From Rhizodiscina lignyota (taxonomy: Eukaryota; Ascomycota; Dothideomycetes; Aulographales; Rhizodiscinaceae): a stretch of DNA of 64,000 bases. Under the pieces are notes generated by a model. It did not search any database. It saw only the letters and a list, made by a program, of their open reading frames with translations, and was not told the origin of the DNA. The position numbers were made by a program, and so were the translations under genes. Shown piece by piece: positions 1 to 32,763 of this stretch. Every line of letters starts with the position of its first letter. Position 1 is the stretch's first letter. Location: positions 620,001 through 684,000 of the forward strand of contig ML978133.1 of assembly GCA_010015805.1 (NCBI GenBank), in the 5' to 3' direction.

Positions 1-959
1 CGGGTTGTCTCGACATAAATCTTCCCGTTCTCTTCCCAGCCTGATGCAGTGTGACTGTGCATGCAGTTCTTGTTGTAATTGTAAACTCGGTATTCGCCTG
101 GCTTCCAGCCCGCAGGGGGTTGATTCGGGCGTCGCGGGATTACGATGAAGGTTGATGGGAGGTCGTAGTTGTATGTAAAGTGATGTCCACCAGCCTTCAT
201 CCGGTCCACGCTCGCCTCGAATGGCCAAAGAAGTAGAGTGATGAAGTTCTCACTTAGCGCCATGTCGTGTATGAACGTGACATGCGGAGACTTGACCCAG
301 ATCTCGTTGTGCACCTTTCCATCTCGGTCTATGGAATATGCAACGACGTCATCTGATCCTGGGCCCTTTGCTTCGTATCCAAAAGTCACCAATTCGTTGG
401 TGAACGGGTCAATTTTGGGGTGGGCTGTAAAGGCTTTGGAATCTACTTGATCTCCATACGGGTCGTACTCCAGCGTCTCCAATGTGTCAGGGTCCATGGA
501 ATAACAGTTCGCAGACTCCCTCAGAACGAGGAGGCGCTTGTTCCAGTGAATGATGTTTGTCTGTGCCGTAGAGTCGACCACGCCACGGACACATGGATGG
601 TCGGACCAAGGATTCTTGAACAACCCAAACAGGCTCCTGCGCGCACGTCGCTCGACCAAGTAGCGCTCAGTCTCGACATATTTGATCTTGAAGTCTACTC
701 GTCCGTCTTTGATGCGGAAGGCGGTGACAACGCCATGACCATCAATCGGGCTTTGTTTGTTATGGGGCGGAGTGAATGGGTCTTGCGCAACCCGGTAAAA
801 GGTCCCTTCAATCTGTGAAGGAATCGTCCCGCGGACGATAACATCGCCAATCTCTCCTTCCAAGCGCACTGGAGGGTTCTTGCCGCTCAAGTCTATGGTA
901 TTAGACCATTTCGACCCAAGCTCCTCCGTCCCAGTCAGTGGCTTGGTAACGAAATCCAT
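1..959 (-). CDS. Carotenoid cleavage / lignostilbene dioxygenase family protein (3' end outside window)
   Basis: This is the N-terminal 319 residues of an RPE65/carotenoid oxygenase family enzyme. The family cleaves carotenoid or stilbene double bonds using a non-haem Fe(II) held by four histidines. The ATG at 959 opens a frame that stays open without introns to the window edge. Visible family marks are EGTFYRVAQDPF (residues 51-62), IDGHGVVTAFRI (72-83), the first iron ligand in TAHPKIDP (His180), the second in FIHDMA (His231) and a third-ligand region around MHSHTASGWEE (300-310). The C-terminal third with the fourth histidine lies outside. Fungal relatives include Neurospora Cao-1, which cleaves resveratrol-type stilbenes; I cannot tell the substrate from this fragment. 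A SnoaL-like gene lies upstream on the same strand. Family assignment is firm, substrate unknown. Confidence 0.9.
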   Translation of the reverse strand, partial: MDFVTKPLTGTEELGSKWSNTIDLSGKNPPVRLEGEIGDVIVRGTIPSQIEGTFYRVAQDPFTPPHNKQSPIDGHGVVTAFRIKDGRVDFKIKYVETERYLVERRARRSLFGLFKNPWSDHPCVRGVVDSTAQTNIIHWNKRLLVLRESANCYSMDPDTLETLEYDPYGDQVDSKAFTAHPKIDPFTNELVTFGYEAKGPGSDDVVAYSIDRDGKVHNEIWVKSPHVTFIHDMALSENFITLLLWPFEASVDRMKAGGHHFTYNYDLPSTFIVIPRRPNQPPAGWKPGEYRVYNYNKNCMHSHTASGWEENGKIYVETT

Positions 960-19757: not shown

Positions 19758-21632
19758 ATGGCTCCGTTGAACGTGAACTCGGCGATCCTTGGGTCCCTCT
19801 TGCGACCAGACGCCTGGCTATTGATTGGCGTCCTTGCTGTCGTGGGCTATGTCGTGTACGAGCGCTTCCTGTCCCCTTGTGCAGGCATTCCGGGGCCTTT
19901 CTTCGCCAGCCTCTCCCGCTGGTGGATGATCAAGCATACTCTGGAGGGAGATATGCACAGAGTCATGATCCAGCAGCATGAAAAATACGGAAGCCTTGTC
20001 AGGACAGGGCCGAATGAATTGAGCATATCAGACCTCAGCGCAATAAGGAAAATATATGGTAGGACAAAGAGGAACTGTAGCGTGTGGACTGGCGCTAACG
20101 CCCTTCACAGGCCCCGGGTCGAAGTTCAGAAAGTCGGACTGGTACTCTGTGTGGCAGGGCCACCGGAAGTTCGATCTGTTTGCGGAGAGAAATGAGAGCA
20201 TACATGGCGCACAACGAAAGCTGGTGGCCAGAGCCTATGCGATGGAAACGTTGAAAGACCTCGAAGAATATGTCAATAATGCCACTCGTGTCTTCATTCA
20301 ACGAATGGACGAGATGCAAGACCAGGTTGTGGATATGGGAAAATGGGTTCAATTGTATGCATTTGGTATGTACACCGCTTCCTCGGCCCTCCACGTCCGA
20401 ACCTGATATCCTATCCAGACGTTATTGGTGAGATTACATTCTCAAAGCGCTTCGGCTTCATGGACGTTGGTGAAGATGATGGGACATTCGGTGCCATTGA
20501 AGGTATATTAGGATCGGCATCCTGGATAGGCCAAGTCCCATGGCTCTTCTGGTTACACGATTATCTTCAACCTGTAATTGGAAATCACCTGAAGGTCAAC
20601 GCCCGCCACGGCGGTGTCCGTAACTTTGCAGCTCGTGAAGTCGCCGCTCGGAAGGATCGCGGCAGTGACCACAACGATATTCTAAGCAAGCTGTTTGCGG
20701 TGCAGAAAGACAAGCCCGAGTTTGAGGACACTTCCGTGCTGTCCATGGCGACGTCAAATGTAGCTGCGGGTAGTGACACGACTGCCATCTCTTTGCGCGC
20801 AATGGTGTGGTATTTGCTCAAATACCCAGAGTGCAAGCAGAAGCTCGTCGAGGAGATTGATGAGAGACGGAGGCAGGGCAAACTTAGCGATCCCGTCCAG
20901 CTTGAGGAGGCCGATCAGATGCCTTACCTGCAAGCTGTCATGTGGGAAGCGCTGCGGCTTCACCCGGCCGTCGGCATGAGTTTGCCACGAGTTGTGCCAG
21001 TAGGTGGGACGGAATTCGATGGCCATTACTTGCCTGCTGGTGTACGTTATGACTTAATCTCAGTAGGCATGGCCGTGAAAGCTGACGTGTGTTCGCACAG
21101 ACTATTGTGGGAGTCAATCCGTGGGTTGTCCAACGGAACAAAGAGGTTTATGGCGAGGATGTTGAAACGTTCAGACCTGAGCGTTGGTTGAACAAAGAGG
21201 ACAAAGGCGACATGCGTACGAGTCGACTCGCCGAAATGCCTTACGGTTTGAACTGACGCATGTTGTAGAGCGGTATTTCTTCGCTTTTGGCGCTGGAGCA
21301 AGGCTTTGCATTGGAAAGAGTAGGTGCAGTGTAAATTGTTGGATGCTATACACCGCTAATACCGTCATAGACATAAGTTGGCTTGAAATGTCAAAGGTGA
21401 GCTCGTGTCTCCAGATTCTGCCCGATGATCTACTGACTGTGCGCGCAAATGCAGCTTATTCCGACATTGTTCATGCACTTTGATATCACCCTTGAAGATT
21501 CGGACGCAGAGTTGAAGGAAACATGCTGGTAAGTTCTTGAAGTGGTCGTTCATTGTTTCGGCTGACATTCGCAGGTGGTTCGTGATCCAGAAGGGCTTGA
21601 ATGTGAAGCTGAATCGTCGTATCCGTGCCTAA
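19758..21632 (+). CDS. Cytochrome P450, pisatin-demethylase-like, 8 exons
   Basis: Membrane-anchored haem-thiolate monooxygenase. Exons 19758-20058, 20111-20365, 20419-21041, 21101-21215, 21269-21319, 21371-21396, 21455-21528 and 21575-21632 join in frame to 500 residues. Landmarks in order: N-terminal anchor ([15 protein letters not shown], about 20-35), PG hinge (GIPGPFF), I-helix AGSDTTA (302-308), K-helix EALR (362-365), PERW, and the haem loop [14 protein letters not shown] with Cys445. The last four exons are very small (51, 26, 74 and 58 nt), and every junction restores conserved sequence, for example CIGK then NISWLEMSK. The sequence resembles the fungal group of pisatin demethylases, but substrate cannot be inferred. 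Divergent from the phenol monooxygenase, hence possibly one aromatic-compound pathway. Confidence 0.93.
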
Positions 21633-24600: not shown

Positions 24601-24850
24601 TCCTCCACTCCACACGTTGCTCTAAAACCCTTTCAAAGTCGCTCTTCAGACCTTCTTCTGCCAGCCGAAATGCAAAAGAGGGCGTCCATCTAATCCGGTC
24701 CCCTAATCCCATCCCAATCTTCACTCAGAATCACTCTCGCCCTCCCGCGGCAACCGTGGCAACCGTGCGTCACTAGTGCGTTCTGCCTTACAAGAGCTCT
24801 TCTCCGCCGCCGCTCTTCCTCTTCCTCTTCGCACTCTCTCCAACCAACAC
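21633..24850. other. 3.2-kb stretch without a supported protein gene
   Basis: Only short frames occur. One at 21937-22119 (60 codons, ending DVENLRQEALLLE) overlaps another frame that starts MDPNAPACSLSLRTEAEAQ at 21860; neither is complete and no intron joins them, so I do not call a gene. From about 24560 the plus strand becomes strongly pyrimidine-rich, with a repeated GGCAACCGT near 24750, as expected for the promoter and leader of the non-coding locus that follows. Confidence 0.45.
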
Positions 24851-25362
24851 CACCCACACTACAACAACCTTCTTCTCTTCATCAATACCCATCTACGACA
24901 CCAGCTGAGCTGGCTGTCAGAGATCTTGCCCCTTTGATCCTTTCTTGTCGCTGCCACTGCTCTGGAGAGCTCACTGCCTCTCAAATCACGCGTCACGCTC
25001 AAGTCTGACGCCACGGGAGCACACACAAACAACAAAATTCCAGCACACACTTAAGGTAAGCTGCGGCTTGGTATTGATGCATCTATTCCCCCTTCGGCCC
25101 TACGCGTTTGAGAGAGCCCGAGATCTCGAGAGCTCAAGATCTCATCGCCGTCGATGCTTGCCTTTTGTTTTCGAGCCGTGTCAAGCTCAGCTTGAAAAAA
25201 AAAAACACGCACACACACGCACCCTTTCGTTGTGCACCCAACTCCACACCGCACGCCTGGCCCCTTTCTTACAATATACATTACCACTCATGTACCTTTG
25301 AAGTTTCGATGTTCCTGTTGATAAAACAAAACGCGGTACGTCGACAGCTTTCCTTTTGTTTC

Positions 25363-25464
25363 TTTACATGATGAGCAAATTGATACTGCACGCATAGCCT
25401 TTGAGCTCCTTAGGCTTTACTCTTCGGCAATGGTTGAGATATATGACATTACTCTCTGATCCAA
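25363..25464 (+). ncRNA. Box C/D snoRNA candidate 1
   Basis: Box C ATGATGA at 25368-25374 and box D CTGA at 25456-25459 lie inside intron 25336-25538. Box C is 32 nt after the donor and box D 79 nt before the acceptor. The guide stretch directly upstream of D is ATATGACATTACTCT. Terminal pairing is weak, so the ends are approximate. I could not assign an rRNA target. Confidence 0.7.
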
Positions 25465-25611
25465 TATGACACTCTACCACAGTTTTCGTCCGGATAAAGA
25501 CTTTGCTGTTGTGGTTTGCTGACATGCCGATACTCCAGAGATTTGTCGGCCTCTCGATCTCTTGATCTGTAATACACAGCCCGGTACGTTATACCTTCTT
25601 TTCTTCTTGTT

Positions 25612-25703
25612 CGTGAATGATGAAATTGGTAAAAGGTGTAGAGAGCCACTTGGCTACGAGCCTCGGTGGCTCTCCATGACATACTTTGCATCGTCTGATC
25701 TCA
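25612..25703 (+). ncRNA. Box C/D snoRNA candidate 2
   Basis: Box C ATGATGA at 25617-25623 and box D CTGA at 25695-25698 lie inside intron 25584-25779. Spacing mirrors candidate 1: 33 nt from donor to C, 81 nt from D to acceptor, and the intron starts are similar (GTACGT, then a T-rich run). Between the boxes a 9-bp perfect stem, GAGAGCCAC with GTGGCTCTC, brings C and D closer. Guide stretch upstream of D: ATACTTTGCATCGT. Confidence 0.75.
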
Positions 25704-26059
25704 CCTCCGAGACCTTCCTTGGGACGCGTTCATTTTCATACATGGCTGGATGCACATGCTAACCTCCCAATACTCGCAGTGATGATTTCGAATTCCCGAT
25801 TGGCCGTTCGAAGCGCAGTGAGTCCAAACTCTCTTCATTCCACATTTTGATTGTTCAATCGGCTCATCATTTTCCGTCGTCATGTTCGCCAGCATCTTCA
25901 GGACAGCCCGGGCCCCTGGCGTTTGTCCGACTTTGTCGATCCCATGACATTCACTGGGCTTCAGGAGTCGGTCATCCGAGGACATTGTGTCCTGTCCGAG
26001 ATCAAACAGCCGGCGAGCCAAGGGCCCCTTTTCCACTGTAGAAGTCGGCCCTTTCAAAG

Positions 26060-26082
26060 TTAATTTCTCGGCCAGAAATTAA
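26060..26082 (+). other. Perfect 9-bp stem-loop next to a snoRNA
   Basis: TTAATTTCT, loop CGGCC, AGAAATTAA. The hairpin ends two bases before the terminal stem of snoRNA candidate 3. It could be a processing signal or chance. Confidence 0.5.
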
Positions 26083-26083
26083 T

Positions 26084-26226
26084 CTCTGGGTGTGATGATT
26101 CAAATCTAATAATGGGCTACACGCTTGGCTCCCGGAAGAGTTATGAAGGGTTCCTTCTGGTTCCCTTCAAAACCGCCGGGCAGCCACTCGTACGCCATGC
26201 AGAAATAAAGGCAATCTGATCCAGAG
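26084..26226 (+). ncRNA. Box C/D snoRNA candidate 3
   Basis: Box C GTGATGA at 26092-26098 and box D CTGA at 26216-26219, closed by a perfect 6-bp terminal stem CTCTGG/CCAGAG (26084-26089 with 26221-26226). This is the best-closed unit in the set. The surrounding intron is less clear: acceptor candidates are 26349 and 26420 and the donor may be near 26037. Guide stretch upstream of D: GAAATAAAGGCAAT. Confidence 0.78.
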
Positions 26227-26588
26227 TTCTGACCGGCTGACAACCCATCCCTCCAATCTTTTCAATGTTCCTCGGTTTGCACTGATGCTCGTCGGGAGCG
26301 GCGAGAATGTATCTGATTGGCATTGATTTCCCGCTGACGCACTTATCAGATCACTTTGTCCCCTTCTCTTTCTCTCATGCATAACCCTGTTTGAGCTTGC
26401 TAACAACTCGTCTTAAACAGGCTTCGGAGGCAGATCCTTTCGCTGGCGGTCTCATTTTTCGCCTGTCACTTGCTCCGTTTGGAGATTGAGACACGGACGA
26501 GACGCCGTCAAAGACATTGATGGCGAAAAGATTGAGGCGAGCCCAGATTTCTCTTTCCATTCTTTTGCACGAGTTCCTGCACCCACTC

Positions 26589-26678
26589 CCGTATCATGAT
26601 GAACCTACCATGCTAATGCTGAGCCGTCGGCTGTGACCATCTTCTATTGTTTCAAATCAATTGTCTGATCCAACACGG
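26589..26678 (+). ncRNA. Box C/D snoRNA candidate 4
   Basis: Box C ATGATGA at 26596-26602 and box D CTGA at 26665-26668. Box D is 80 nt before the acceptor at 26748, which has a CTAAT branch sequence. A short outer pairing CCGT/ACGG closes the unit. The donor of this intron is not obvious. Like candidates 1, 3, 8 and 9, box D is followed by TCC. Confidence 0.72.
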
Positions 26679-27077
26679 AGAGCTATTTGCCAATCGAGCT
26701 TTGAGACTTCTCTTTAAATCCGAGCTAATACATACGATCTCCGCGCAGGCTTTCCCCTCCACCAGTGTGACGAAACACCTCTACTTCCTCCTCCTCACGC
26801 ACAACGCGAATCACCCAAGCTGCGAACGATCGATCGTTGTCTCGCCGGACTCGTGAATGACTTCTGCATGGCCTGGAACACATGTCCAATATAACAGCCA
26901 GTATTGTCGAAGCGGTTGGTTGAGCACTGTCGTACAATCCAAGGAGCCTGGAAGCTGCATTGTCTGGCCACGCAGCGGGGAAGCTGTCGTTGGATAAGAC
27001 TGGAAGAGTCAGCTTGTCCTACGTGGCCACTGTCATTGTGAGTCTGCCGTTGTTTCCTCCTTTATGGGTAGCACCAC

Positions 27078-27207
27078 GTTGGAAGGATGACAAAGATTAC
27101 GGCAAAACATACCTACCTTAGCTTCTCTTCTGCTCAAGTCAGGGTTGAGATGCAAACGGGATGAAATGACTCCCGTGGATGACCGAAAAAATCTTCGCCT
27201 GACCAAC
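27078..27207 (+). ncRNA. Box C/D snoRNA candidate 5
   Basis: A box C variant, AGGATGA (27084-27090), and box D CTGA (27199-27202) are closed by a perfect 5-bp stem GTTGG/CCAAC (27078-27082 with 27203-27207). It lies in intron 27038-27274, with 72 nt from D to the acceptor. An internal hairpin CGGGA/TCCCG lies around 27157-27175. This is the first of three tandemly related introns. Confidence 0.7.
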
Positions 27208-27374
27208 ATAAACACATAGCCACGACTCTTTCTGCCATTTAAAAGTTGCTTGGGCTAACAATATGTACGGACAGGCTCGCCGCTGCCCCGACAAGATGCA
27301 CCAGAGGAGTCTGGTCCCGCACGAGAGCTTTTGCGCGTGAGTCGCTCCATTTATTTCTTCATGAGTACCACTAC

Positions 27375-27481
27375 ATTGCATGATTACAACAACAAGATCT
27401 AAGCCAAGCGAGGAGAACTTACCGGCGGTATTGGGCGGGAACGCCTGATGACGACAAGATCTCAATCTTCTTCTGACCCAC
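27375..27481 (+). ncRNA. Box C/D snoRNA candidate 6
   Basis: Box C variant ATGATTA (27380-27386), C'-like CTGATGA (27445-27451) and box D CTGA (27473-27476) in intron 27337-27548. Box D lies 72 nt before the acceptor, exactly as in candidate 5, and the introns are clearly paralogous: both begin GTGAGTC and share a CTnTTTCTGC block and an ACAAnATGTAC block before the acceptor. Terminal pairing is poor. Confidence 0.55.
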
Positions 27482-27673
27482 ACAAACATATTGCGATGAC
27501 TGTTTCTGCGTATCACAAGTTACTGAAGCTGACAAAATGTACCACCAGATTTGCCCGGAACGAAACGGAGACAAAGACGCATGCAGGACAGGTGCAATCC
27601 GGAGAAGTCTGGTGCAAGGAAATGGCCTTTAACCGTGTGAGTCTGCACTCTGCTTTTCTTCATCAGAGTCCCA

Positions 27674-27810
27674 TGTTGTCTTGAAAGTGATTCAAAAAGA
27701 AGACAATAATGGCTTGGTTCCTTGTGCCATGTGCATCGAATCCCAACTCGCGTGTTGAACTTGTAGTAGCAGCGATATGATCTGCAATGACCCTGCGTTC
27801 GTTGTTCAGC
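27674..27810 (+). ncRNA. Decayed box C/D snoRNA copy
   Basis: Intron 27637-27853 is the third tandem relative (same GTGAGTCTGC start). At the place of box C it has GTGATTC (27687-27693), and at the place of box D it has ATGA (27787-27790), where its sisters have CTGACC. No intact D box exists, so I take it as a non-functional copy. Confidence 0.5.
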
Positions 27811-28143
27811 TCCGCTTTATATGTTACTTCGGCTAACGGAATCGTGTTTCCAGGCTCCAAGACAGCGTGAAAGTGACGGCGCCGAAGTCGTCAAAGCCAC
27901 ACTTGGACGGTACCAGCTGGCCTCCACGAGTAAGTGACATCTCAGTCACTACTGTGCTCGAAGAAACAGCTTGAACGGCGATGCTGACACCGAGAGAAGC
28001 AACGGCCAGGCCAACAAGATCATAGTCGAATACAGGCTCGAATCGAAGTGCGAATGAAAGCATAGTCGGCGGTAACGATTCAGACAGTATAGACAACCTA
28101 AGCACGTGAGTCCGGTCTCGTACTTCTGAAACCCAAAGCAGCA

Positions 28144-28322
28144 TATTTCATGATGACAACCCATAATCCAATCGTACAGGCGTCACAGCTTCGGTACACA
28201 TCGAAGTGGTTTCGCCTCGTTGCCTAACCTGCATTGCACATCGAAGTGGTTTCGCCTCGTTGCCTTAACCTGCGGTGTGTGCCGGAGTGCCCATGACGAA
28301 TTTGAAGAACATCTGATCCTTA
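28144..28322 (+). ncRNA. Box C/D snoRNA candidate 8 (long, with internal duplication)
   Basis: Box C ATGATGA (28150-28156) and box D CTGA (28313-28316) in intron 28106-28402; D lies 86 nt before the acceptor. The unit is long for the class (about 175 nt) because a block of about 36 bp beginning CACATCGAAGTGGTTTCGCC is present twice at a 40-bp period (28197-28232 and 28237-28273). The guide stretch GAATTTGAAGAACAT before D is related to that of candidate 9. Confidence 0.7.
28197..28273 (+). repeat. 40-bp tandem duplication inside snoRNA candidate 8
   Basis: Two nearly identical copies start CACATCGAAGTGGTTTCGCC at 28197 and 28237; the second has one extra T near its end. Near identity points to a recent event. 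Confidence 0.9.
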
Positions 28323-28523
28323 ACAATGCCTTTGGAGCTCTGTCCTGAATTGCAAATCTTGCTTTGTCCATCCTTTGCTAACACTATTATCATCGAATAT
28401 AGGCTCAAATTGAACTTTGAAGGGAGAACGAGAGCATGGTCGACGGCAACGATTCGGACAATATGGACAACCTAAGCACGTGTAAGTCCAGTCTCGTACT
28501 TCTGAATCCGAAGCAACTTACTT

Positions 28524-28699
28524 CATGGAAATGATGAATATCCTATAATCTTCGTACCCTAATGGGTTTTTCATCTTAGTCCATTCCATGGCTCCAACCA
28601 GACTTGTGAGGTTTCGCCTGCCATGGCACACTGGTGGAGCAATACCCCGTCTGTGTGGAGTTATGACATGCAGAAAATGAGGAACATCTGATCCAATGA
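28524..28699 (+). ncRNA. Box C/D snoRNA candidate 9
   Basis: Box C ATGATGA (28531-28537) and box D CTGA (28688-28691) in intron 28482-28763, with D 72 nt before the acceptor. The outer stem TCATGGA/TCCAATGA pairs with one bulge. Its intron start and preceding exon are visibly duplicated from the candidate 8 unit (GTCTCGTACTTCTGAA in both introns, GACAACCTAAGCAC in both exons). Confidence 0.78.
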
Positions 28700-28991
28700 C
28701 ATTACAACTTCATTCTTCTCAAGCACCTTGGATTTCCCGCGCTAACAAGGTTTTGGTAAACAGGCTCAAGACAGACGGCAGACGAAGAAGGAAGAAAGGC
28801 GTCGCGCAGACACTAAAGAGGCGTAATTGAGAATTGAGATTGATTGAAAGAGAAAGTGGAGGAGAAAGAGCTAGTCATTGACGTTCACGAGCCGAGAAGG
28901 CAGGCAGCACAGGAAGTAGACCGGCGGACTGAACCACACACACACCTTCAGTCCCAGTAAATAGCCTTTGACTCAAGATGACTTCTATATT

Positions 28992-29580
28992 CTACCGCGC
29001 CGCACTATCTCGTGATTGCATCAGCTTCCTCGCTTCCGCCTTCAACCAGCTCGCATCTGGCGGCAGTTTCGATTTTCCCTCGGGCAAAAGTTTCTCTTCC
29101 TCTTCATCTCTCATCGCATTGGCCGCGTTATAGCCCTTCCTATCCCACGGTGTGTAGTCCTTTGGTTCTTCCGGCCATACGAATGGCTTCTCCATCCGAA
29201 TTGTCATATACTTTGTGCTTATCGGTCTATGCCATTGTCTCTTTGAGGCTCGTGTCTCTGCGGGCTTGTTCGGCTGGATCGGTGATATCCTGACAACCGA
29301 TCGCACATGTAATGCTTCGACTCCATATGCATGGTAGAGATAGTCCTTCAAATCGAGTTTGTTCCAGTTCAGCGGTACGCGGAATCTTGCGAAGGTCGGA
29401 GGTAGGTGCTTTGTACGGAGAAGTGTGACAACGGCTTTGATCGGCGGCCTGCGTAGTATGTGTCAGAGAGAGTCCAGCGAGCAATGCAAACACTTTACTG
29501 AAGAGCACGACTCACAAGTATATCTCCTTCTGCCCAATCACCTTGAATATATTGCCGAATTTACGCATAGCGGTAGCCAT
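28992..29580 (-). CDS. MRP20: Mitochondrial large-subunit ribosomal protein uL23m
   Basis: Component of the mitochondrial 54S ribosomal subunit near the peptide exit tunnel. Exons 29580-29516 and 29448-28992 (67-nt intron) give 173 residues. The N-terminal MATAMRKFGNIFKVIGQKEI is basic and doubles as a targeting region; the junction rebuilds IYLPPIKAVVTLLRT. The uL23 core continues with PLNWNKLDLKDYLYHAYGVE and VRSVVRISP, followed by a fungal-specific extension (KPFVWPEEPKDYTPWDR). The charged tail DASWLKAEARKLMQ ends the protein. The gene converges with the snoRNA host locus, their ends being perhaps only tens of bases apart. Confidence 0.93.
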
Positions 29581-30811: not shown

Positions 30812-32763
30812 ATGTGGCCCCAAGCTTGCGTCATCACCGCGCTGGTGCTGTACTTCTCTCTAACAATACTTCCGCTCTATCGCAACTATGTGGTTGCGAG
30901 GAAGGTCGGATTGCCAATCATCATCAGCCCCGTCAATCCCTTGGGAGTATTTTGGCTCCTCTTGGGAGTACGTTTCATACCACTGATACGATTGCTTCCA
31001 AACCGTCTCTCCCTATGGACTCATTGCACCGAGTACGGCGGAGGATTCAATGACAGGACCGCCATCCACAAGCGAGTCGGGCCAGTCTTCATGCATGTCA
31101 ATCCTGCTTGGAATGAGTTGGTGGTCGCCGATGCAACCTCTGCGGCCAGCATTCTCAATAGAAGGAAAGACTTCATTAAGCCCCAAATATTTTATGGTGA
31201 GTAACTCCCGACTATCAGATTTGGTTCTAATTGAGCCCAGAGCGTTTGAACGTCTTTGGTTCTAATGTCGATACGGTACGTACAATCTTAATAAATTCTC
31301 TCATGCAGATTGCCCTTCTTTCTAACGGGCCCTTCATTTTTCTAGGTTGAAGGCGATGACTGGCAGAGGCAGCGCAAATTAACGGCGCCTTGCTTCAACG
31401 AAAAGACTAGTAAGGGCGTTTGGGATATCGCCTCCAATCAGGCAAAATCAATGGTAGAACACAACATGTCTCTGTTCGATACTTCCACGAACTCGCTGCA
31501 AGATGACTCCAGGACAATAGCTATGAATGTCCTCGTTGGCATTGGCTTCGGTATTATGCAAGACTTCCTCACTGGACAGAAGAAGGTCGACCCAGGCTAT
31601 TCCATGAGCTACGTGGACTCGCTAAGGACAATCATCCGCAACATTTTGTTCACCTTTATCTTTCCTCACAAGGTTCTCCTTTATGGATTTATGCCGAGGG
31701 CACTACGCAAGGTGGGCATCGCCATAGCAGAGTTCGGCCGGTACAACCATGAGTTGCTAGCCAAGGAACGCGATGCTATACAGCACGAACAGCAAGCTGT
31801 CCGGAACAACCTCTTGAGTACATTGGTCCGATCATCAGATGCCGAAGATTCAAAGACAGGCAAGAAGCAAGGACTTTCCGAGGAAGAAATTCTCGGAAAC
31901 ATGTTCATTTTCAGCCTCGCAGGACACGACACGACAGCCAACACTATTACTTTTGCTATTGGGCTTCTTGCTGTCCATCCAGAGTGGCAAACCTGGATAC
32001 AAGAGGAGCTCGACTACGTCTTTGGAGCGAAGGCGGGAGGAGAATATGAAGATGCATTTTCAAAGCTCAAGCGGTGTCAAGCGGTAGTAGTAAGCACCTC
32101 ATCTGCTCTTTCATTCGTTCCATGACCATATCGACGTGACTCATGTATACGGACCACTATCCTTGTTCTCGCTGACGCCTGTTGCAGTTTGAGACACTCC
32201 GACTTTGGGGCTCGGTCCCATTTATTGTCAAATCCACTGGAGCTGAAGCCCAACCTCTCGAGCTTCCATTCGGTGCTCCAGGGTCCGCGTACCGCCAATG
32301 CATCCTTTCGCCTAATACTATGATACATATCAACCTCCCAGCACTTCATATCTCTCCTGAAAACTGGGGTTCTGACAGCCTCACATTCCGACCATCTCGC
32401 TGGATCCAGACTGGTGGTTCTGTTTTGCCGACTGACTCTGCACTGCCAAAGGATCTCGAGTCGGAGAGGCTAATCACTCCCCGAGCTGGCGAGTTCATTC
32501 CTTGGGCTATGGGCCCGAGGAATTGCCTCGGTATGAAATTCGCTCAGGTAGAAGCCGTATCGGTGCTGAGCACGGTGTTCAAGAGCGCGCGAGTCAAGCC
32601 AAGCTTGGCGCCGGAACTGCGCACTGGACAGTATGATCTGTCTGATGGAAGATTATCGAGAAAATTGGCGATGGAAGTGCTCAAAGAGAGGCGTGTGGAA
32701 GTTACAATTACGATTGCCAGGCCTCACGACCTCTGGCTGAAGTGGGAAATGAGAGAGGGATAG
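30812..32763 (+). CDS. Cytochrome P450 monooxygenase, 4 exons
   Basis: Exons 30812-31196, 31241-31275, 31346-32089 and 32188-32763 give 579 residues. The ATG at 30812 starts a membrane anchor (CVITALVLYFSLTILPLY). Landmarks follow: LNVFGSNVDT on the 35-nt second exon, then EGDDWQRQRKLTAPCF (helix C WxxxR), I-helix AGHDTTAN, K-helix ETLR (390-393), FRPSRW and the haem loop WAMGPRNCLGMKFAQ with Cys501. Splicing places the ExxR motif at the start of the last exon (VV then FETLRLW). At 579 residues it is longer than usual P450s because of a longer N-terminus and insert region. No neighbouring biosynthetic genes are obvious, so its substrate is open. Confidence 0.92.

Follow-up and report, generated by a model that had tools for sequence, protein, structure and literature searches.

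A probable UHG/GAS5-like non-coding host gene in Rhizodiscina lignyota with one candidate 18S/U6 guide and orphan box C/D units

Box C/D units at the locus

The window analysed here is a stretch of 64,000 nucleotides from the fungus Rhizodiscina lignyota (Dothideomycetes, Aulographales; G000:C13:620001-684000, in a genome of 33.4 Mb and 29 contigs). Its plus strand carries a proposed non-coding gene whose introns appear to hold box C/D small nucleolar RNAs (snoRNAs), as an earlier note on this DNA had suggested. We consider it likely that the locus is a UHG/GAS5-like non-coding host gene containing one guide for 18S ribosomal RNA (rRNA) and U6 small nuclear RNA (snRNA), together with orphan and partly duplicated C/D units (Table 1).

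Six strict units of the form RTGATGA...CTGATC, all on the plus strand, lie within 24.9-28.98 kb. When the region 24900-29000 was scanned with the rule that RTGATGA be followed by CTGA within 45-175 nt, six pairs were found versus 0.35 expected (23 in 272,993 background bases), the background being made up of the remainder of the window plus strand beyond this region, the entire window minus strand, and 19 loci chosen without regard to C/D motifs and read on both strands. If CTGATC is required, a motif that all six units have and that was picked post hoc after the region had been seen, the background falls to 1 and the expectation to 0.02. The pattern ATGATGA-N53-83-CTGATCC occurs 17 times genome-wide versus 0 times in the backward reading; two of the 17 are units A and G, most of the 17 are without splice signals at the usual distances, and not all are snoRNA-like. 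Three weaker units, H, I and J, none with an exact C box, raise the total to nine. The count of at least eight units in the earlier note is reached with these weak members, six units being strict. Two further candidates were dropped, one at 26282 with neither an exact C box nor a guide above chance, and a GTGATGA at 25779 with no D box. A lone GTGATGA...CTGATCC at 238-360 (+) is the only further such pair on either strand of the window.

The terminal stems quoted in that note are present: CTCTGG/CCAGAG at 26084-26089/26221-26226, GTTGG/CCAAC at 27078-27082/27203-27207, and TCATGGA/TCCAATGA, the last read by eye and with a bulge. Stems are clear for D and H, bulged for L, and weak or absent in the remaining units. 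Compared with shuffled sequences, B and D fold clearly better and H, L (z -1.8) and K (z -1.7) somewhat better, and I is average.

Introns and splice geometry

Nine introns are predicted from 5' splice sites of the GTACGT, GTGAGT and GTAAGT types combined with a branch point and a 3' splice site, and eight of the nine hold a unit, which bears out the previously noted series of fungal introns. The D box precedes the 3' splice site by 72 nt in H, I, L and J (the D box of J having been chosen with the spacing already known), by 79 nt in A, 80 nt in G, 81 nt in B and 86 nt in K, and the C box lies 32 (A), 33 (B), 46 (H), 43 (I), 51 (J), 44 (K) and 49 nt (L) after the 5' splice site. The combination of [CT]TRAC and YAG at 60-90 nt downstream accompanies seven of the nine unit D boxes, as compared with 13 of 233 CTGA motifs on the window plus strand outside the region; the two units lacking it are D and G, and the branch point of G reads CTAAT. 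The U14 gene of the same genome (52.1 bits, under its gathering score of 64) was taken as a yardstick; there, GTACGT precedes the C box by 40 nt and YAG follows the D box at 61 or 71 nt (71 by eye). In three other C/D genes, L028, L030 and L035, the 5' distances are 40, 33 and 36 nt and the 3' distances 65, 64 and 67 nt, respectively. The layout of the units is similar to that of U14 and these three genes.

In our reading, the host gene would be transcribed and spliced, and the debranched introns would be trimmed to box C/D snoRNAs whose D boxes lie 72-86 nt before the 3' splice site. Alternatively, the intron elements could have a role in cis, such as in the splicing of their host transcript, with the orphan units yielding no snoRNA. 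Effects of intronic snoRNAs on host-RNA splicing have been reported in animals (PMC10324135), but C/D boxes at a spacing like that of U14 in the same genome point to processing, and we regard an action in cis as very improbable.

Table 1 Features of the proposed host gene (window coordinates).
Feature	Position	Strand	Notes
Proposed non-coding host gene	24830..28990	+	extent of splice signals and units; ends approximate, set by eye, unmapped
Intron with unit A	25336..25538	+	GTACGT...CTGAC...CAG
C/D unit A, orphan	25368..25459	+	ATGATGA/CTGATCC; no guide above chance
Intron with unit B	25584..25779	+	GTACGT...CTAAC...CAG
C/D unit B, orphan	25617..25698	+	ATGATGA/CTGATCT; strong internal hairpin; fold z -3.1
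Intron with unit D	25818..26420	+	GTGAGT...CTAAC...CAG; 603 nt, internal structure uncertain
C/D unit D, orphan	26092..26219	+	GTGATGA/CTGATCC; CTCTGG/CCAGAG terminal stem; fold z -4.7
C/D unit G, snR53/CD11-like candidate guide (18S-A796 and U6)	26596..26668	+	strict boxes, guide match
D' guide of unit G	26608..26618	+	directly before D' box CTGA 26619-26622
Accessory element of unit G	26642..26657	+	between D' and D boxes
Intron with unit H	27038..27274	+	GTGAGT...CTAAC...CAG
Weak C/D unit H	27084..27202	+	AGGATGA/CTGA; GTTGG/CCAAC stem; fold z -2.0
Intron with unit I	27337..27548	+	GTGAGT...CTGAC...CAG
Weak C/D unit I	27380..27476	+	ATGATTA/CTGA; 3' part duplicated with H
Intron with unit J	27637..27853	+	GTGAGT...CTAAC...CAG
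Weakest C/D unit J	27688..27781	+	GTGATTC/ATGA
Short intron without unit	27930..28009	+	GTAAGT...CTGAC...CAG; 3' end possibly 28035
Intron with unit K	28106..28402	+	GTGAGT...CTAAC...TAG
C/D unit K, orphan	28150..28316	+	ATGATGA/CTGATCC; internal 29-nt repeat
Intron with unit L	28482..28763	+	GTAAGT...CTAAC...CAG; duplicate of K module
C/D unit L, orphan, K paralogue	28531..28691	+	ATGATGA/CTGATCC

Coding potential and the case for a host gene

In the joined exon model, the intron of G and a putative first intron starting at 25056 were kept unspliced, the other end of each being unclear; in this model the longest open reading frame (ORF) is 86 aa, a length equalled in 35% of 300 shuffles. The absence of a long reading frame, claimed earlier, was confirmed in this way. 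No homologue of the 86-aa ORF was found, and with ORFs at chance level a protein-coding gene was rejected. A coding gene, or chance motifs in intergenic DNA, could still be argued from the fact that the support consists of sequence signals alone and that Rfam finds nothing at gathering score, but chance-level ORFs with no homologue, the motif enrichment and the splice geometry make this extremely improbable.

Motif enrichment, splice geometry like that of U14, and the lack of coding potential support the host-gene reading well. The locus very probably represents a genuine snoRNA host gene of known type in which the proportion of orphan, partly duplicated units is unusual. The non-coding, multi-intron C/D host gene of the earlier note stands on these three points, and units D and G are the ones that do not fit its layout.

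Several observations weigh against this interpretation. Unit D and the 3' site of its intron are separated by 201 nt, outside the usual layout, and unit G has a 3' splice site at 26748 and no convincing 5' splice site. Units A, G and J fold slightly worse than the shuffle mean; H and I are imperfect in the C box and J in both boxes. An Rfam scan of the region returned no family at the gathering score, and snoU6-53 reached only 20.6 bits on 26591-26665 (gathering score 36, E 0.59). The rRNA targets described below are yeast sequence, not the species' own. For unit G, the guide score of the D' match taken by itself has a P of 0.095, and crosslinking, ligation and sequencing of hybrids (CLASH) in yeast is described as giving no reproducible rRNA hybrids for snR53 (PMC6171561).

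Unit G as a candidate 18S/U6 guide

The D' guide of unit G forms 11 bp with 18S 792-802, which places A796 (yeast 18S) at the +5 nucleotide, and the same guide forms 10 bp with the genome's own U6 gene at ATTAGC. We take 18S-A796 to be the site of yeast snR53, and the U6 target adenine, as we count it, is presumably human A53. The accessory element can form 13 bp with 18S 800-812, sharing 3 nt with the guide duplex, or 13 bp with U6, where the pairing reaches the first A of ACAGAGA. In 3000 block shuffles, the P value of this element was 0.002 for 18S 780-840 and 0.0023 for U6, and no shuffle reached both; among 1424 genomic 42-mers, 1 (18S) and 0 (U6) equalled it. The any-position complementarity of G (P 0.03) comes from a 25S match running into the D box, not from the 18S/U6 guide. 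TGATGA with the G guide within 25 nt is found at two places genome-wide, and the second snR53-like match (C6:320246) was taken as chance: its surroundings are GC-rich and coding-like by eye, and Rfam finds nothing there.

With these complementarities, unit 26596-26668 fits the known snR53/CD11-like guide of 18S-A796 and U6. It would guide 2'-O-methylation of 18S-A796 and, via the same D' guide, of the U6 adenine, and its accessory element may pair with either target and stabilise the duplex. In the available text of PMC2780460, CD11/snR53 of Neurospora crassa is listed for 18S-Am793 and given a U6 target by its D' element. Unit G resembles CD11 in its D' guide to 18S-A796 (A793 in N. crassa), in its fit to U6 and in length (73 versus 79 nt). 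In contrast, the CD11 D-box guide to 26S-Am356, reported only for N. crassa, was not found in unit G, whose best D guide is at 25S 3050 (P 0.175), and that text makes no mention of an accessory element fitting both targets for CD11. In Schizosaccharomyces pombe, extra pairing of sno530 around its site is described as stimulating methylation (PMC10484740). According to the same source, A41 is the only 2'-O-methylation of S. pombe U6 outside the internal stem-loop, so the U6 site of unit G may not be common to S. pombe.

Targets of the other eight units

Guides were compared with yeast 18S, 5.8S and 25S rRNA and with the genome's own U1, U2, U4, U5 and U6. Yeast rRNA served as a surrogate because the species' own ribosomal DNA (rDNA) was not found in searches with 5.8S and 25S sequence: the 5.8S search was negative and a 25S piece retrieved only a decayed fragment. 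The surrogate does recover the sites of U14, L028 and L035. Guides at exact CTGA boxes of A, B, D, H, I, K and L gave P values of 0.14-0.81, and J has no such guide. An inexact D' box of L points to 25S-G3327 at a nominal P of 0.029; B has 12 bp with 25S 857-868 and I has 13 nt with U2, both without a good D' box and not above chance. Any-position complementarity gave P 0.11-0.98 for the eight units, and 0.085 for U14, 0.035 for L028, 0.01 for L030 and 0.015 for L035, an imperfect yardstick in that the P of L030 does not derive from its D guide (25S G908) but from another site.

These searches support the assignment of A, B, D and H-L as orphans against the surrogate yeast rRNA and the genome's own snRNAs, and these units may form C/D small nucleolar ribonucleoproteins with no recognisable rRNA or snRNA guide. 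The earlier note had recognised no rRNA match and had proposed Rfam and guide searches. Its view is retained for these eight units and has to be given up for unit G, where the guide search finds 18S and U6 and where the sub-threshold snoU6-53 match lies. The eight could instead be ordinary methylation guides whose targets were missed, at lineage-specific rRNA sites, tRNAs or rRNA positions that diverge from yeast. The use of yeast rRNA as surrogate, the limitation of the target set to rRNA and snRNAs, and the nominal leads for L, B and I would agree with this, as would the many Neurospora sites unknown in yeasts (PMC2780460), but the same surrogate recovers the sites of three yardstick genes and no lead is above chance once all tests are counted. 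We consider missed targets rather unlikely.

Yeast snR4 and snR45, the acetylation guides, are C/D RNAs without a methylation guide, as the orphans here appear to be; two of these, K with 167 nt and L with 161 nt, are of considerable length. However, none of the nine units has both snR45 elements (GS1 before the C box and GS2 around 18S C1773), and the full GS2 of snR4 (18S 1264-1271, with GS1 at 1286-1290) is found in no unit; unit D shows 5 and 6 pairs with the snR4 elements, a very short match without shuffle control. An acetylation pocket model, with nominal P values of 0.03 (D, C1280), 0.02 (J, C1280) and 0.01 (H, C1773), was set aside because the guide positions are described as lying elsewhere (PMC5464676).

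Tandem copies

The stretches 28010-28152 and 28377-28527, belonging to the K and L modules, are 77% identical, and 27190-27281 and 27464-27555, belonging to H and I, are 72% identical. The likeness of K and L spans the exon and the first part of the intron, as far as roughly the C box, and resumes at the D-box end (73% identity across 44 nt, E 0.05); their interiors align poorly. Short 3' stretches are shared by D and L (76% across 21 nt and 87-88% across 15 nt), perhaps by chance. No paralogue of 25040-27600 was found elsewhere in a genome search, and a search with 28100-28420 returned the neighbouring copy as its only match. Tandem duplication thus involves two pairs of units, and the best reading is that the array grew partly in this way. 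The copies are spaced by ~375 bp, under the ~400-bp size given for repeat-induced point mutation (RIP) in N. crassa (PMC2780460).

It is also conceivable that only G, perhaps with A and B, works, and that H-L, the tandem units, are snoRNA introns that were copied and are now in decay. The imperfect C boxes of H, I and J, the imperfect D box of J, the K and L interiors that do not align, and the folding of I and J, which is no better than that of shuffles, would be expected of such copies. K and L, however, retain exact C and D boxes and splice signals despite their diverged interiors, and we judge general decay unlikely.

Comparison with known systems

UHG-like snoRNA host genes have been described as clusters I-V of N. 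crassa (PMC2780460) and in other fungi (PMC3596301). In the available text of these sources they have, like the present locus, non-coding exons, short ORFs only and intronic C/D snoRNAs. Intronic position and the absence of an exon ORF are indicated here by sequence signals for seven units, with D and G fitting in part. The described clusters carry guides conserved with yeast (for example snR72-78, snR57-55-61, snR41-70-51), whereas no guide is recognised in eight of the nine units here and tandem copying takes in two pairs of them. SNORD115 and SNORD116 in human SNHG14 are described as orphan C/D RNAs occupying successive introns of one non-coding gene (PMC11608373), an arrangement seen here as well. 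Unlike those arrays, the present locus is fungal and has few, strongly diverged copies; the likeness is one of organisation, and homology is not claimed.

More tentatively, the locus might be a lineage-specific, expanding orphan C/D array built from ~375-bp exon-intron modules copied in tandem, under the RIP size, a counterpart of SNORD115/116 in organisation, standing beside a dual-target 18S/U6 guide with a shared accessory element; we hold this to be possible. No title among the literature matches listed names a fungal orphan C/D array, though this does not prove that none has been described. Annotation of fungal snoRNAs is sparse beyond yeasts and Neurospora, and at this locus no Rfam family attains its gathering score. 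If expressed, the locus would offer a compact, removable set in which the role of orphan C/D RNAs could be studied, and a clear instance of a single guide for both 18S rRNA and U6 snRNA.

Genomic setting and other RNA genes

A minus-strand gene for the mitochondrial ribosomal protein uL23m (best PDB match E 5.4e-8) lies at 28992-29351, tail to tail with the proposed host gene. P450 reading frames flank the locus further out on both sides (20343-21191 and 31451-32125), and a Cef1 protein is also encoded in the window. The fungus is presumably saprobic.

Among the other C/D genes of this genome, L027 is U14, L030 is snR60-like (25S G908 and A817), and L035 and L028 have guides near 25S 2795 and near 25S C2959, respectively. 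L029 (G000:C2:512123-512205, minus strand) has ATGATGA...CTGATCC, much predicted pairing and a 3' site 86 nt downstream; it has no guide match and is possibly another orphan C/D snoRNA. In L002, positions ~1150-1560 (G000:C23, ~66.35-66.8 kb) are a decayed 25S rDNA fragment interrupted by stretches with GTAAAG...GCTAAC...TAG, which looks as if rDNA here once carried spliceosomal introns. Spliceosomal introns in rDNA are known from lichen fungi. U1 gave seven matches, all under the cut-off. U2 snRNA gave fifteen matches above the gathering score, from 159 down to 71 bits (L006-L013 and further places), five of them on C6 at 1596-1673 kb.

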